Assembly: GCF_000833025.1 (NCBI RefSeq)
Contig: NZ_CP010817.1
Span: forward strand, 806,001 to 870,000
Direction: 5' to 3'
DNA from: Myroides profundi
Lineage (GTDB): Bacteria > Bacteroidota > Bacteroidia > Flavobacteriales > Flavobacteriaceae
Length of the DNA stretch: 64,000 nucleotides
The notes beneath the pieces were generated by a model. That model saw only the letters and a program-made list of their open reading frames with translations. It made no database searches and was not told the DNA's origin. Below, in pieces: positions 24,964 through 52,387 of this stretch (position 1 is the stretch's first letter; the number at the start of each line of letters is the position of its first letter). The translations under genes and the position numbers were made by a program.

Positions 24964-25584
24964 TTATTTATCTCTAAATTTTATGCCAATGAAAGTTCGA
25001 GTAGGGTTACCTCTCTCTATTTTCGTTTGGTTTAGCCATGTGTTCTTTTCTTCTAGTTTGACTTCATTTAATGCCATATTTTGAAGTTTTTCGACTAGTC
25101 GTTCAGTGGCTAGTTTTTTGTTTTGGTGCTGAGATCTACTATCCATAGCTAATACAGTAATACCTGTAGGCAGATGAGTAGCTCTTACAGCGGAGCTAAC
25201 TTTATTGACATTCTGTCCGCCAGCTCCAGAACTGCGTACAGCTTGGTATTGAATATCACGGTCAAGAATCGCAGGATCACTTGCTTTAGTGCTTTCAAAA
25301 ATACCGATGTACCAATTCTTTCTTTTGTGTTTAGGTCTAAAGGGACTTTCGCAAATCCACTGTATTGTACCTAACCAAGTTTTCAAAAAAGTATCAACTT
25401 CTTTAGACGTTTCGACGATTTGGATAAAGACCGACGCGCCATGTGCGTCGGTTTCATCCTGTATTGGATCAACTTTAATATTGGATTTGACTGCGTCGTC
25501 TATAAAAAGTTGTGCGATCTTCTTAACGGCAAAATCACACTCTTGGGGACCTCTACCTGATGTAATCTGAATAACTTTAGCCAT
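24964..25584 (-). CDS. prfH: Peptide chain release factor homologue PrfH
   Basis: PrfH is a class I release-factor relative that keeps the GGQ peptidyl-tRNA hydrolysis loop (RSSGAGGQNVNK, GGQ at residues 122-124) but lacks the stop-codon recognition domain of RF1/RF2. At 206 residues it has normal PrfH length. The gene lies 2 bp behind rtcB. In other bacteria RtcB2-PrfH pairs have been shown to release peptides from ribosomes cut at the 16S decoding centre so that the rRNA can be religated. The same job is inferred here from the pairing. Confidence 0.93.
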   Translation of the reverse strand: MAKVIQITSGRGPQECDFAVKKIAQLFIDDAVKSNIKVDPIQDETDAHGASVFIQIVETSKEVDTFLKTWLGTIQWICESPFRPKHKRKNWYIGIFESTKASDPAILDRDIQYQAVRSSGAGGQNVNKVSSAVRATHLPTGITVLAMDSRSQHQNKKLATERLVEKLQNMALNEVKLEEKNTWLNQTKIERGNPTRTFIGIKFRDK

Positions 25585-25586
25585 AA

Positions 25587-26978
25587 TTACTTATCCATTC
25601 TTACAAATTTAGGGGTAAAGCTTCCCAATACTTTTACTAATTCGCTTTGAGCTTGCATCACTGCATTGATGTCTTTATAAGCCATTGGGGCTTCATCTAC
25701 GCTACCTCCTATAAGTTGAACACCTGTAGAGCTAAGCTCTTTCTTAATCTCACTCTTGGTAAACTTCTGTTTACATGTTGTGCGTGAGTGTAGGCGTCCT
25801 GCTCCATGAGAGGCAGAATTTAAGCTCTCTGCATTTCCCAGACCTTCGACTATATAGCCATTAGTAGTCATCGATCCTGGGATTATTCCTAATTGTCCTT
25901 CTGCAGCAGGAGTAGCTCCTTTGCGGTGAACAATTAATTCTTTGTTATTAATCACTTCTTTCCAAGCGAAGTTATGATGGTTTTCGATAGTGAAAGCTAT
26001 CTGCTTACCTAATGCTTTCGCAATGCGACGGTGTATATCATCGTGGCATGCCTTCGCATAATCTCCTGCAAGATTCATGGCTAACCAATACTCTTGCCCA
26101 TCATGTGTGTTGAGGTCTAACCAAGCTAAATGTTGTGCATTGCTTGGTAGAGGGCATTGTTTAGTTGCTAAATATGTATAGTGCTTAGCGATATTAGCTC
26201 CAAGACCTCTTGATCCACTATGTGAAAGAACTGCGATATATTCTCCAGGTTCTAATCTCCACTCGGGTTTAGTCTCCGTTAATCTAACGATTCCAAACTC
26301 TACGAAGTGGTTACCACTACCTGATGTTCCTAATTGTTTATACGCTTTATCTAATAAACCTTTTACAAAAGGAATGTTTTTAAATTCCTCTCTACTGAAT
26401 ACTTCATGATCAGCTTTGACTTTATGTGTGTCATACATCCCGAACTTAGTATGTTCTGATAATATGTTTAACAACATATGGTCTTTCCCTTTTAGGAAGC
26501 TGGCAGGTAGATTAAAGACTGACATACTCATACGGCATCCTATATCTACACCTACTCCATAAGGAATAACAGCATTATCAGTAGCTAATACTCCTCCGAT
26601 AGGTAATCCATAACCGTAATGAGCGTCAGGCATTAATGCCCCCTGTATTGCTACAGGTAATTTTAAAGCAGTGAACAGTTGGTACTTCGTCTGTTCGTCT
26701 ATAGCGTCTTCTCCATAGATAGAGAATGGAACTCTATTGGTATTCAGTTGATGCTTTTTGACTTCTACTTGCTTTATCATACTCTCTGCTACTTTGCCCC
26801 AGATACCGTCTCCTATGTAAGAATCAGGGTTCTTTAGTACAAGCTTAGCTTCTTCAAGTATGTTGTTTTTGTTTTCTTTTTTCTTATATCTATTTACTTG
26901 CCCTAAGGCGATGTTTATTGTATTATTTTGAGGAAAGCCTATTTTAATAAAGTCTCTCCCAGAAAGTTTCCTTCCCAT
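25587..26978 (-). CDS. rtcB: RtcB-family RNA ligase (PrfH-associated type)
   Basis: RtcB joins RNA 2',3'-cyclic phosphate or 3'-phosphate ends to 5'-OH ends, using GTP and Mn2+. The 463-residue protein has GVGVDIGCRM (metal-binding Cys), GTSGSGNHFVEFG, the SHSGSRG loop, IENHHNFAW and the guanylated His in SASHGAGR (His391). Together with prfH it forms the ribosome-repair pair. Archease, tRNA splicing partners and RtcA are absent nearby. Regulation is probably by the upstream leader described separately. Confidence 0.93.
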   Translation of the reverse strand: MGRKLSGRDFIKIGFPQNNTINIALGQVNRYKKKENKNNILEEAKLVLKNPDSYIGDGIWGKVAESMIKQVEVKKHQLNTNRVPFSIYGEDAIDEQTKYQLFTALKLPVAIQGALMPDAHYGYGLPIGGVLATDNAVIPYGVGVDIGCRMSMSVFNLPASFLKGKDHMLLNILSEHTKFGMYDTHKVKADHEVFSREEFKNIPFVKGLLDKAYKQLGTSGSGNHFVEFGIVRLTETKPEWRLEPGEYIAVLSHSGSRGLGANIAKHYTYLATKQCPLPSNAQHLAWLDLNTHDGQEYWLAMNLAGDYAKACHDDIHRRIAKALGKQIAFTIENHHNFAWKEVINNKELIVHRKGATPAAEGQLGIIPGSMTTNGYIVEGLGNAESLNSASHGAGRLHSRTTCKQKFTKSEIKKELSSTGVQLIGGSVDEAPMAYKDINAVMQAQSELVKVLGSFTPKFVRMDK

Positions 26979-27026: not shown

Positions 27027-27104
27027 ATCTGTTTTTTACTGAAGATCTTTAGCATCTATCAGTCAATTCGGGTTTTAATGACGTTAAGGCTCCGGAATAA
27101 ACAC

Positions 27105-27136
27105 AAAAAAGCCCGAATTTAAATCTTCGGGCTTTT
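27105..27136 (-). terminator. Terminator in the rtcB-prfH leader
   Basis: Arms AAAAGCCCGAA and TTCGGGCTTTT (27126-27136 and 27107-27117 on the plus strand) are perfect 11-bp partners, followed on the reverse strand by a T-run. It sits between a leader ORF and rtcB, about 130 bp before the gene, so it would end transcripts before they reach it. Confidence 0.85.
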
Positions 27137-27160
27137 CATTTATATATAAAATTAGATATT

Positions 27161-27241
27161 CTAAATAAAAGTAGCACGAAGATACACCCCAGCAATCCCT
27201 GCTGATGCGAATGATGTAGAAGTATAATTTAGTACAAACAT
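27161..27241 (-). CDS. Candidate 26-aa leader peptide ahead of rtcB-prfH
   Basis: The short ORF starts with ATG about 35 nt behind a plausible promoter and stops 24 nt before a terminator. It reads MFVLNYTSTSFASA, then GIAGVYLRATFI. The composition is mixed (Ala, Ser and Thr are common), with no run of one amino acid, unlike biosynthetic leaders. Codons 21-25 (plus coordinates 27167-27181) are complementary to the terminator's first arm. Translation is inferred, not shown. Confidence 0.6.
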   Translation of the reverse strand: MFVLNYTSTSFASAGIAGVYLRATFI

Positions 27242-27252
27242 TTTTTCTTCGT
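27167..27252 (-). promoter_or_regulatory. Possible antiterminator and protector segments, rtcB leader
   Basis: On the reverse strand CTTCGTGCTACTTTT (27167-27181) pairs with the terminator arm AAAAGCCCGAAG (27125-27136), giving CTTCG, GCT and TTT helices. ACGAAG (27247-27252), just upstream of the leader ATG, is an exact complement of CTTCGT and could hide the antiterminator when no ribosome has started. A CAGCA / TGCTG hairpin (27190-27204) lies within the leader. Downstream, AAAACCCGAATT (27065-27076) can pair 8 bp with the terminator's second arm. Confidence 0.55.
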
Positions 27253-27279
27253 TTTTAATTGTTAAACTTTATTTCAGTG

Positions 27280-27311
27280 CAAAGATTGTATAAAAGATTT
27301 GAATTGTGCAA
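27280..27311 (-). promoter_or_regulatory. Promoter of the rtcB-prfH leader
   Basis: On the reverse strand, TTG (27309-27311), 21 bp, then AATCTTTG (27280-27287). The last box has one mismatch to TAnnTTTG. Confidence 0.55.
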
Positions 27312-27736: not shown

Positions 27737-28489
27737 ATGAAAAAGATTTATTTATTCCTTCTAGGATTGAGCTTATCACTTCAGTCATGTGTGACAAAAG
27801 AAGAATTATACGTAAAAGATAATGGTGCAGTAGATTACACCTTTAAGATGGACTTTAAAGAGTTGTTACAAAATGTGCCTGATAAGAATGCTATTTTTAA
27901 AGGAGATGCTGAGAAGTTAGAATTGATTAGTGGACAGGAGTTAAGCATAGATCAGATACTTGATTTCGCTATGTTAAAAGAAAAGAATGGAGAGCAGAAG
28001 AAAGATAGTATTATTAAAGCAAACAAAGAGCTGTTTGACAATACTAAGAATGTGCGCTTTATGATTAATATGAAAGACTCTTTGGCTGATTTTAATTTAA
28101 AAGTGATTGCAAAAGATATGGCAGACTTGAATCAATCACTTATTAATATCAATAAGATAACAGATAAAACAAGTGAACTAGATAAGAAACAGAATGGAAA
28201 GAAACAACCACCTTTATTAGTTGATAGTCAGTATAGTTTAGACAGTAAACAATTCGAAAGAAAGGTGAGTGTAAAAGATACTGAGGAAGCTAAGAAATCG
28301 AATGAGATGGGAGGAATGGAAGCGATGTTTACTTATGTTCTAAAAACAAGTTTTGACAAGAAGATTAAATCTGTGTCTTATGAAGATGCCGTAATCAGTA
28401 AGGATGGTAAATCTTTTGAAAAGAAATTCTCTATGTCTGATATTATAGCTAATCCTAAAGTGTTAGAATATAAAGTGGAATTCAAATAA
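27737..28489 (+). CDS. Lipoprotein, unknown
   Basis: The 250-residue precursor has a lipobox (LSLSLQS-C, Cys at 18). The mature part is very rich in Lys, Asp and Asn, with alternating helix and strand. VDYTFKMDFKELL near residue 33 and KVLEYKVEFK at the end look like edges of one beta-containing domain. No known family was recognised. It is monocistronic, with its own promoter and terminator. Confidence 0.7.
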   Translation: MKKIYLFLLGLSLSLQSCVTKEELYVKDNGAVDYTFKMDFKELLQNVPDKNAIFKGDAEKLELISGQELSIDQILDFAMLKEKNGEQKKDSIIKANKELFDNTKNVRFMINMKDSLADFNLKVIAKDMADLNQSLININKITDKTSELDKKQNGKKQPPLLVDSQYSLDSKQFERKVSVKDTEEAKKSNEMGGMEAMFTYVLKTSFDKKIKSVSYEDAVISKDGKSFEKKFSMSDIIANPKVLEYKVEFK

Positions 28490-52185: not shown

Positions 52186-52259
52186 GGCCACGTGGCGCAA
52201 CTGAATAGCGCATCTGATTACGGCTCAGAAGGTTGCAGGTTTGAATCCTGCCGTGGTCA
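52186..52259 (+). tRNA. tRNA-Arg (ACG), copy 1
   Basis: The cloverleaf is complete over 74 nt. Acceptor GGCCACG pairs with CGTGGTC, D stem GCGC/GCGC, anticodon stem TCTGA/TCAGA with loop TTACGGC (anticodon ACG), T stem GCAGG/CCTGC with loop TTTGAAT, and discriminator A. CCA is not encoded. A34 is presumably changed to inosine to read CGU/CGC/CGA. Confidence 0.97.
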
Positions 52260-52263
52260 CTAA

Positions 52264-52285
52264 AGTCTTGATTTGAATCAAGACT
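52264..52285 (+). other. Spacer hairpin between the two tRNA genes
   Basis: AGTCTTGAT and ATCAAGACT form a stem without a U-run, so it is more likely a processing or spacing feature than a terminator. Confidence 0.5.
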
Positions 52286-52311
52286 GTGATAGAAATAAAT
52301 AAAAGAATAAT

Positions 52312-52385
52312 GGCCGCGTGGCGCAACTGAATAGCGCATCTGATTACGGCTCAGAAGGTTGCAGGTTTGAATCCTGCCGCGGTCA
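52312..52385 (+). tRNA. tRNA-Arg (ACG), copy 2
   Basis: Identical to copy 1 except for one acceptor base pair: GGCCGCG pairs with CGCGGTC, a G-C in place of A-T at the fifth pair. Both members of the pair have changed, so structure is kept. Discriminator A; CCA not encoded. Both genes are expected on one transcript. Confidence 0.97.
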
Positions 52386-52387
52386 CT

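Follow-up and report, generated by a model that had tools for sequence, protein, structure and literature searches.

A probable ribosome-mediated transcription attenuator upstream of the rtcB-prfH genes of Myroides profundi and other Bacteroidota

How do bacteria recognize that their ribosomes have been cut? To our knowledge, this question is largely open outside the RtcR system. In Escherichia coli, rtcBA is under the control of RtcR and sigma-54 and is induced by damage to the translation apparatus, RtcR being, unlike the leader RNA considered here, a protein activator for which RNA ends are the presumed signal; the main text of that account does not use the word 'leader' (PMC12606134). In Myroides profundi, the 207 bases at positions 27105–27311 of the 64,000-nt stretch analyzed here (contig NZ_CP010817.1, positions 806,001–870,000; hereafter the window) probably place rtcB-prfH under ribosome-mediated transcription attenuation, the operon being switched on when a ribosome occupies the first ~4 codons of a short leader ORF. 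A first-pass annotation of the window had interpreted the region as an attenuator, and the comparative sequence analysis presented below supports that interpretation.

The locus was read on the minus strand, and rechecking the coordinates by script placed the promoter-like pair, the 26-codon ORF, the 11-bp terminator with its T-run and rtcB-prfH where the first-pass annotation had them. The promoter-like pair (27279–27311) comprises TTG at 27311–27309 and AATCTTTGC at 27287–27279, the latter near the flavobacterial promoter box consensus TAnnTTTG (PMC9723704), and the transcript would start near 27273. A TTTG-type box is found 37–75 nt (mostly 40–50 nt) 5' of the leader start in 148 of the 182 leader entries compiled below. 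Segment 1, the protector strand (ACGAAGA, 27246–27252), has a CGAAG core ending 5 nt before the ATG of the leader ORF (27161–27241; 26 codons, MFVLNYTSTSFASAGIAGVYLRATFI, TAG stop), and segment 2 (ATCTTCG-T-G, 27175–27183) lies within the ORF. The intrinsic terminator, P3 (27105–27136), is an 11-bp stem of AAAAGCCCGAA (27136–27126) and TTCGGGCTTTT (27117–27107) with a T-run to 27105; segment 3 (GCCCGAAGAT, 27123–27132) provides both its 5' arm and the 3' strand of the antiterminator P2. Segment 5 (CCCGAATT, 27065–27072) is complementary to AATTCGGG (27119–27112) on the 3' side of the terminator, a possible further helix, P4. Two complementarities that had been read from the sequence hold base by base: ACGAAGA at 27252–27246 matches TCTTCGT at 27182–27176, in the last codons of the ORF (the protector, P1), and ATCTTCG at 27183–27177 matches CGAAGAT at 27129–27123, in the first terminator arm (P2). 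The genes that follow are rtcB (25587–26978; PF01139, E 4.4e-86), a PrfH-linked RNA ligase gene whose product is 99% identical to the RtcB of M. odoratimimus CCUG 39352, and prfH (24964–25584), encoding peptide chain release factor H (TIGR03072, 206.5 bits, cut-off 166.65). The terminator does not serve the neighboring ORF at 27737–28489, since that ORF lies on the plus strand and is divergent.

Rfam 15 yielded no match to the leader at gathering score (best 28.1 bits against a gathering score of 90), and its sole two matches in the window are tandem tRNA-Arg(ACG) genes at 52186–52386. Directly 5' of the rtcB start, TTGACTGATAGATGC and GCATTTAGTCAA (27066–26994) could make a long hairpin. The source genome also encodes a second RtcB (G000:C1:3406127-3407512; 53% identical), in whose 7-kb surroundings the best match to the leader covariance model described below scored only 19.2 bits.

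The same gene pair is preceded by a leader peptide in Pseudomonas aeruginosa, where armZ (PA5471), described as RtcB-like, and prfH (PA5470) are reported to be controlled by transcription attenuation through the leader peptide PA5471.1 and induced by stalled ribosomes. According to these descriptions, the terminator is formed by segments 3:4 on complete translation, stalling results in antitermination, ribosome-targeting antibiotics act as inducers, and the Pseudomonas product also derepresses an efflux pump through MexZ (PMC12057347; PMC13041342). PA5471.1-armZ-prfH is the nearest known system and a direct precedent, and its layout is present in the window, with a leader ORF and terminator 5' of an RtcB-like gene and prfH. 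The two systems differ in phylum and, comparing the leaders by description, in codons 3-4, which are Gln-Phe in PA5471.1, whereas codon 3 is Val in 81 of the 91 distinct 27-codon ORFs of the genus. Searches of open-licence PMC papers showed no account of the leader or of rtcB-prfH regulation in Bacteroidota, although a list of 64 structured 5' regions of F. psychrophilum (PMC9723704 supplement) may include the leader; attenuation of this gene pair is already known in Pseudomonas, and the Bacteroidota leader is apparently newly described.

A PrfH search of the GTDB genus identified 131 of 398 genomes as positive (E <= 1e-40), and the 131 prfH loci analyzed comprised 130 fetched loci (129 genomes, one with two copies) and the window, a genome with a partial prfH (G171) being left out. 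The first-pass annotation had predicted a conserved short ORF upstream of rtcB-prfH in relatives, and 130 of the 131 loci indeed have a leader with an intact ORF 5' of rtcB (128 with ATG and two with GTG starts); in the one remaining locus, L256, the contig ends 773 nt upstream of rtcB. More than 600 nt separate leader and rtcB in 49 of the 130 cases, with an ORF of ~250 codons in between in at least 28 of those 49. A strict DNA pattern composed of segments 2, 3 and 4 occurred in 111 of 343 genus genomes, as a single copy save in the genome that has the locus twice, and the reversed pattern used as a control in 0/343. Pattern and prfH were jointly present in 109 of these genomes and jointly absent from 230, two having prfH without the strict pattern and two the pattern without prfH (Fisher p about 6e-85, relatedness uncorrected); in both of the latter the leader precedes an intact rtcB. 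Of the 131 fetched loci, 128 have the strict pattern 5' of rtcB; the exceptions are L256 and the variant leaders of G134 and G263. Across the class it matched 7/395 genomes (reversed control, one match), five of which are prfH genomes of the genus; in the other two, the leader lies ahead of rtcB (G738) and the pattern match 2.3 kb ahead of prfH (G040). The leader thus marks the rtcB-prfH operon, and its recurrence goes far beyond chance.

To extend the comparison, we used a covariance model built from 29 training sequences, which was run on 80 named RtcB loci from GTDB r220 and at E <= 1e-4 placed a leader 5' of rtcB, on its strand, in 69 of them; 11 of the 69 were among the training sequences, and two (L131 and L146) pass the cut only marginally. 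The 69 include loci of Flavobacterium, Myroides, Chryseobacterium, Kaistella, Epilithonimonas, Algoriella, Tenacibaculum, Polaribacter, Aquimarina, Zobellia, Lutibacter, Neptunitalea, Pustulibacterium, Sediminicola, Fluviicola and Sphingobacterium. The model found no match at 11 of the 80 named loci, of which L129 and L136 offer only ~200 and 143 nt of sequence 5' of rtcB, and L122 and L154 narrowly miss the cut. Among 68 further candidates, 16 were not parsed automatically, five of these (L352 and L361–L364) being without a leader; leaders that looked real by eye in L119, L123, L142, L144, L159 and L348 were excluded from the counts, and the divergent leaders L149, L151 and L152 have a P2/P3-like arrangement recognized by eye only. 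The resulting 182 leader entries represent 178 distinct sequences, 41 of them non-redundant at <80% ORF identity.

DNA similarity searches with the leader in 397 family genomes returned long matches outside its own genome only in G083 and G086, the other matches being short, mostly 25–60 bases. A covariance-model search of the family produced many weak matches of about 33–45 bits, of which the top 30 loci were checked by tblastn, eight were read and 40 stretches, some overlapping in place, were fetched. Among the weak matches listed, most show generic terminators without segment 2.

The three alternatives of protector, antiterminator and terminator proposed for the window depend on shared strands, P1 and P2 being mutually exclusive, as are P2 and P3, through the segments they have in common. 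We asked whether the pairs are maintained in relatives. Since a first MAFFT alignment had misplaced segment 1, a script excised the paired segments for the covariation counts from 181 of the 182 entries (one without a parsed terminator was omitted), and only pairs flanking the cores were taken as evidence, since the CTTCG and CGAAG cores had been required by the search. Significance was assessed with 2000 shuffles, which do not remove relatedness. Segment 1 is present in 36 of the 41 non-redundant leaders, and in the 171 entries where it is found its core ends 2–8 nt before the start codon. The outer flanking pair of P1 is kept in 30/36 leaders (AU 22, CG 5, and GU, UA and GC one each) and the inner one in 32/36 (AU 18, CG 6, UG 6, UA 2), values reached in 0/2000 shuffles for either pair. 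Four slid registers were tried and none stood out, the best being equaled by 175 of 2000 shuffles. P1 is short, as the next inner pair (22/36) and the next outer pair (3/36) are at chance level. Two of the leaders judged by eye show P1 with altered cores, CTGAAG against CTTCAG in L123 and CCGAAG against CTTTGG in L142.

P2 is likewise maintained, in a form that modifies the antiterminator originally described: the pairing itself was confirmed, its extent was not, since the helix is longer in most relatives and carries a single bulged base after CTTCG. In most relatives CTTCG, the bulged base and GGC or GAC pair with GCC or GTC followed by CGAAG; past the bulge, pairing holds in 141 of 164 cells, compared with 124.5 +- 2.3 for shuffled sets (0/2000 reach this value), and on the near side of the core 45 of 82 (33 and 12 of 41) against 30.6 +- 3.8 (again 0/2000), the second near-side pair being kept in just 12/41 leaders. 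In the window, the helix past the bulge is limited to G27175:C27130, the following pair being C against C. A bulge-free antiterminator register was discarded, as it performed at chance level in the shuffle test.

Over 29 leaders, the consensus helix of P3 has 10 pairs, of which three show changes in both strands. A single base of segment 3 has to pair in P2 as well as in P3; in 27 of the 41 leaders its two partners change along with it (C-G-G in 15, T-A-A in 12), the three-way pattern being broken in 14 (C-C-G 7, T-A-G 3, T-C-A 2, C-T-G 2). Since P1 and P2 both covary although they compete for one strand, we regard their joint conservation as the signature of a switch; the alternative stems that the first-pass annotation expected to covary in relatives do so, and the lack of conservation that would have counted against it was not observed. 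We accordingly give very little credence to the explanation that the region is a self-contained small gene or small RNA ending at a terminator of its own, with rtcB expressed from a separate promoter downstream. Promoter, ORF and terminator do make up a complete unit of about 170 nt, yet P2, which covaries, would have no purpose in it, and the strict pattern recurs upstream of rtcB in the 128 loci and in the two genus genomes without prfH.

A P4-type helix beat shuffled downstream sequence (p<0.05) in 21 of the 41 non-redundant leaders, with the partner segment mostly 20–45 nt past the T-run; L170, the Myroides-type member of the 41, is without a significant P4 helix. P4 may thus be optional and hold the ON, or read-through, state. 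Sequence 3' of the terminator (27105–27065 in the window) is also conserved, as TTCTAGACACTTC...CCCGAA in many Flavobacterium loci and as TTCCGGA...CCCGAATT in Myroides. The CCCGAA part alone of this conserved sequence has an explanation, P4.

Taken together, this anatomy suggests the following switch, its anatomy, conservation, covariation and operon specificity being observed and the ribosome positions, termination or read-through, ribosome-free state and signal being what we infer. In healthy cells, the ribosome would run through the leader ORF and pause on its last codons or UAG, where it would cover segment 2 and prevent P2, so that P3 would form and transcription would stop near 27105. 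With no ribosome loaded, P1, made first, would sequester segment 2, again leaving P3 to form and the operon OFF. Upon damage, a ribosome that has initiated but halts over the start and first ~4 codons would cover segment 1, blocking P1; segment 2 would then pair with segment 3, and P2 would break the terminator and let the polymerase continue into rtcB-prfH. The terminator arm released in this way could, in roughly half of the non-redundant leaders, pair with segment 5 in P4, holding the ON state. Because a ribosome footprint reaches about 15 nt upstream, segment 1 would be covered while the ribosome stands on codons 1–4.

Folding of the window leader up to segment 3 under ribosome masking agrees with part of this scheme. 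The first-pass annotation had argued that early-stalled ribosomes leave the antiterminator free, and P2 is indeed absent when codon 22 or the stop is masked and present with the start region covered (-25.7 kcal/mol); what folding does not reproduce is the dependence on a stalled ribosome, as P2 also forms with codon 12 covered and, in the pre-terminator transcript, without any ribosome (-28.4 kcal/mol). The complete transcript favors P3 in every case. The modeled energies thus support the OFF state for a ribosome near the stop, and leave P1, and induction by early stalls only, unexplained. P1 would have to act kinetically, by forming first, since energy favors P2 even without a ribosome; its role and the ribosome-free OFF state are suggested by the covariation of P1 and its earlier synthesis, and we hold the attenuator reading less firmly because ribosome-free folding also gives P2. 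The same folds are compatible with a plainer arrangement in which the operon is ON whenever segment 2 is free of ribosomes, through any upstream stall or lack of translation, segment 1 serving mainly leader translation. The absence of segment 1 from its usual place in 11 of the 182 entries, and the rise in ArmZ described upon deletion of the coding region of the Pseudomonas leader, would fit such an arrangement. We nevertheless consider it unlikely, as the covariation of the two variable P1 pairs (0/2000 shuffles) is not expected from selection on leader translation alone.

The ON position predicted for the preferred switch, a ribosome held on the first ~4 codons, can be compared with the behavior of damaged ribosomes. 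E. coli ribosomes cut by E3 are reported to initiate at ~75% of control and to bind the next aminoacyl-tRNAs at 50% and 40%, yielding ~15% pentapeptide, with essentially nothing expected past about eight residues (PMC2615495), and PrfH is described as freeing fMet from fMet-tRNA on E3-cut ribosomes (PMC9223846). Since cut ribosomes initiate and then halt within a few codons, the predicted ON position would approximately coincide with the place where they stick and PrfH acts. Ribosomes cut at the decoding center would in this way induce the enzymes that repair them, that is, induction by their own substrate.

In the classical trp, his and ilv attenuators, a leader ORF is combined with mutually exclusive protector, antiterminator and terminator helices. 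The Bacteroidota leader shares the ORF and the mutually exclusive helices with these systems, but it is without a regulatory codon run, the last codons of its ORF are themselves segment 2, and the proposed ON ribosome stands at the start codon rather than at a later control codon. At msrD, bmrCD and yxjB, ribosome occupancy of a short leader chooses between terminator and antiterminator in answer to drug-bound ribosomes stalled on it, whereas no arrest peptide is evident in the Bacteroidota leader and its genes, unlike theirs, repair rRNA.

The leader had been said to lack a run of one amino acid, and this holds across the collection: the longest single-residue run is three, in 7 of the 182 entries, and amino acid synthesis is not a function of the operon. 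Among the ATG-start leaders of the genus, the codons CTT (128/128) and CGT or CGC (128/128) are invariant because RNA pairing needs them. All but one of the 131 genus loci keep the frame open (leaders from other genera had been selected partly for an open frame), and single changes elsewhere in the ORF between nearest neighbors among the 91 distinct 27-codon ORFs were synonymous in 84 of 204 cases (0.41) against 0.28 expected, pointing to modest to moderate constraint on the leader peptide beyond the RNA. This under-representation of amino-acid-changing substitutions, and the LR kept in nearly all leaders, could also be expected of an amino-acid or nascent-peptide attenuator sensing one charged tRNA or a ligand-induced arrest at the conserved LRG/LRD end. 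That mode of action strikes us as quite improbable, given that LR is imposed by the RNA through these very codons, that L142 has CTT-TGG and a segment 1 that, by eye, still pairs with it, and that no residue run is longer than three and much of the peptide varies between genera.

The spacing of the elements is rigid: segment 2 ends 10–19 nt from the stop codon, with 16 nt in 154 of the 182 entries. Its 3' half would be covered by a ribosome waiting at the stop. As many as 122 of 128 genus leaders end in TAG, a stop used by only 19 of 268 long, uncurated ORFs in these stretches. With PrfH being a release-factor homologue, this bias could be taken as a sign that slow release at UAG sets the switch, which would then read PrfH or RF1 activity as a termination sensor or through PrfH autoregulation. 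We find this a shade more improbable again than a peptide attenuator: TAG falls to 24/41 in the non-redundant set, TAA is used in four Sphingobacterium leaders and in several other lineages, and a ribosome at the stop, by masking segment 2, would be predicted to turn the operon OFF, acting as a brake rather than an inducer.

The genes found behind the leader in relatives bear on the signal to which the preferred switch would respond. In different relatives, the leader is followed by a gene without Pfam or NCBIfam match and then rtcB; by PcfJ-like genes (PF14284) and then rtcB, with no rtcB seen behind them in L348; by a TPR gene and then a different RtcB (25% identical in L328); by prfH-TPR-RtcB; or by an operon of prfH, a gene that we take to be KptA-like, and rtcB. 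A ~250-residue protein without Pfam or NCBIfam match is encoded between leader and prfH/rtcB in L344 (462–1227, minus strand), and proteins similar to it sit between leader and rtcB in other genomes. Six variant leaders (L349, L350, L351, L353, L355 and L356), mostly encoding MSLFITYQ...MLRDYR, lack segment 1 at the usual position and are followed by a TPR gene (prfH and TPR in L355) and then an RtcB apparently of another class. The broken rtcB2-prfH remnant of E. coli K-12 is preceded by an ORF of 15 codons that has a strong Shine-Dalgarno sequence (MTNPLSMTLCRPFQD; L302:2720-2790) and could be another leader. In a single case, L347 (200–990), a copy of the leader (MTYVKLHIASVLPFCKVMLRVVSV, TGA stop) stands before a gene for an AAC(3)-I-like acetyltransferase (87.2 bits, under the 200-bit cut-off) and not before a repair gene.

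This last copy, together with the response of Pseudomonas PA5471.1 to ribosome-targeting antibiotics, makes it a tentative possibility, and one we take seriously, that the same switch has as its natural signal drugs that slow early elongation, aminoglycosides among others, and serves a general response to ribosome inhibition rather than to cut rRNA. Against this, save for L347, the copies with downstream genes read precede RNA-repair genes or their usual companions, a point limited in that the stretch of L348 showed a companion (PcfJ-like) only, and drugs may act as an additional inducer. On balance we lean slightly towards the view that the leader represents an RNA sensor of ribosome integrity that is widespread in Bacteroidota, its signal being a damaged ribosome unable to leave the start codon, with no protein regulator or specific codon involved, and that its regulon takes in rtcB-prfH, the TPR-associated second class of RtcB, the putative KptA-like operon and at least one aminoglycoside-acetyltransferase-like gene.

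If the switch works as proposed, a repair operon would be turned on only by the fault that its own products put right, and E3-cut ribosomes, not intact ones, should raise read-through at 27105 in coupled transcription-translation. The leader family also offers a marker for ribosome-repair operons in Bacteroidota and for their unknown companion genes.
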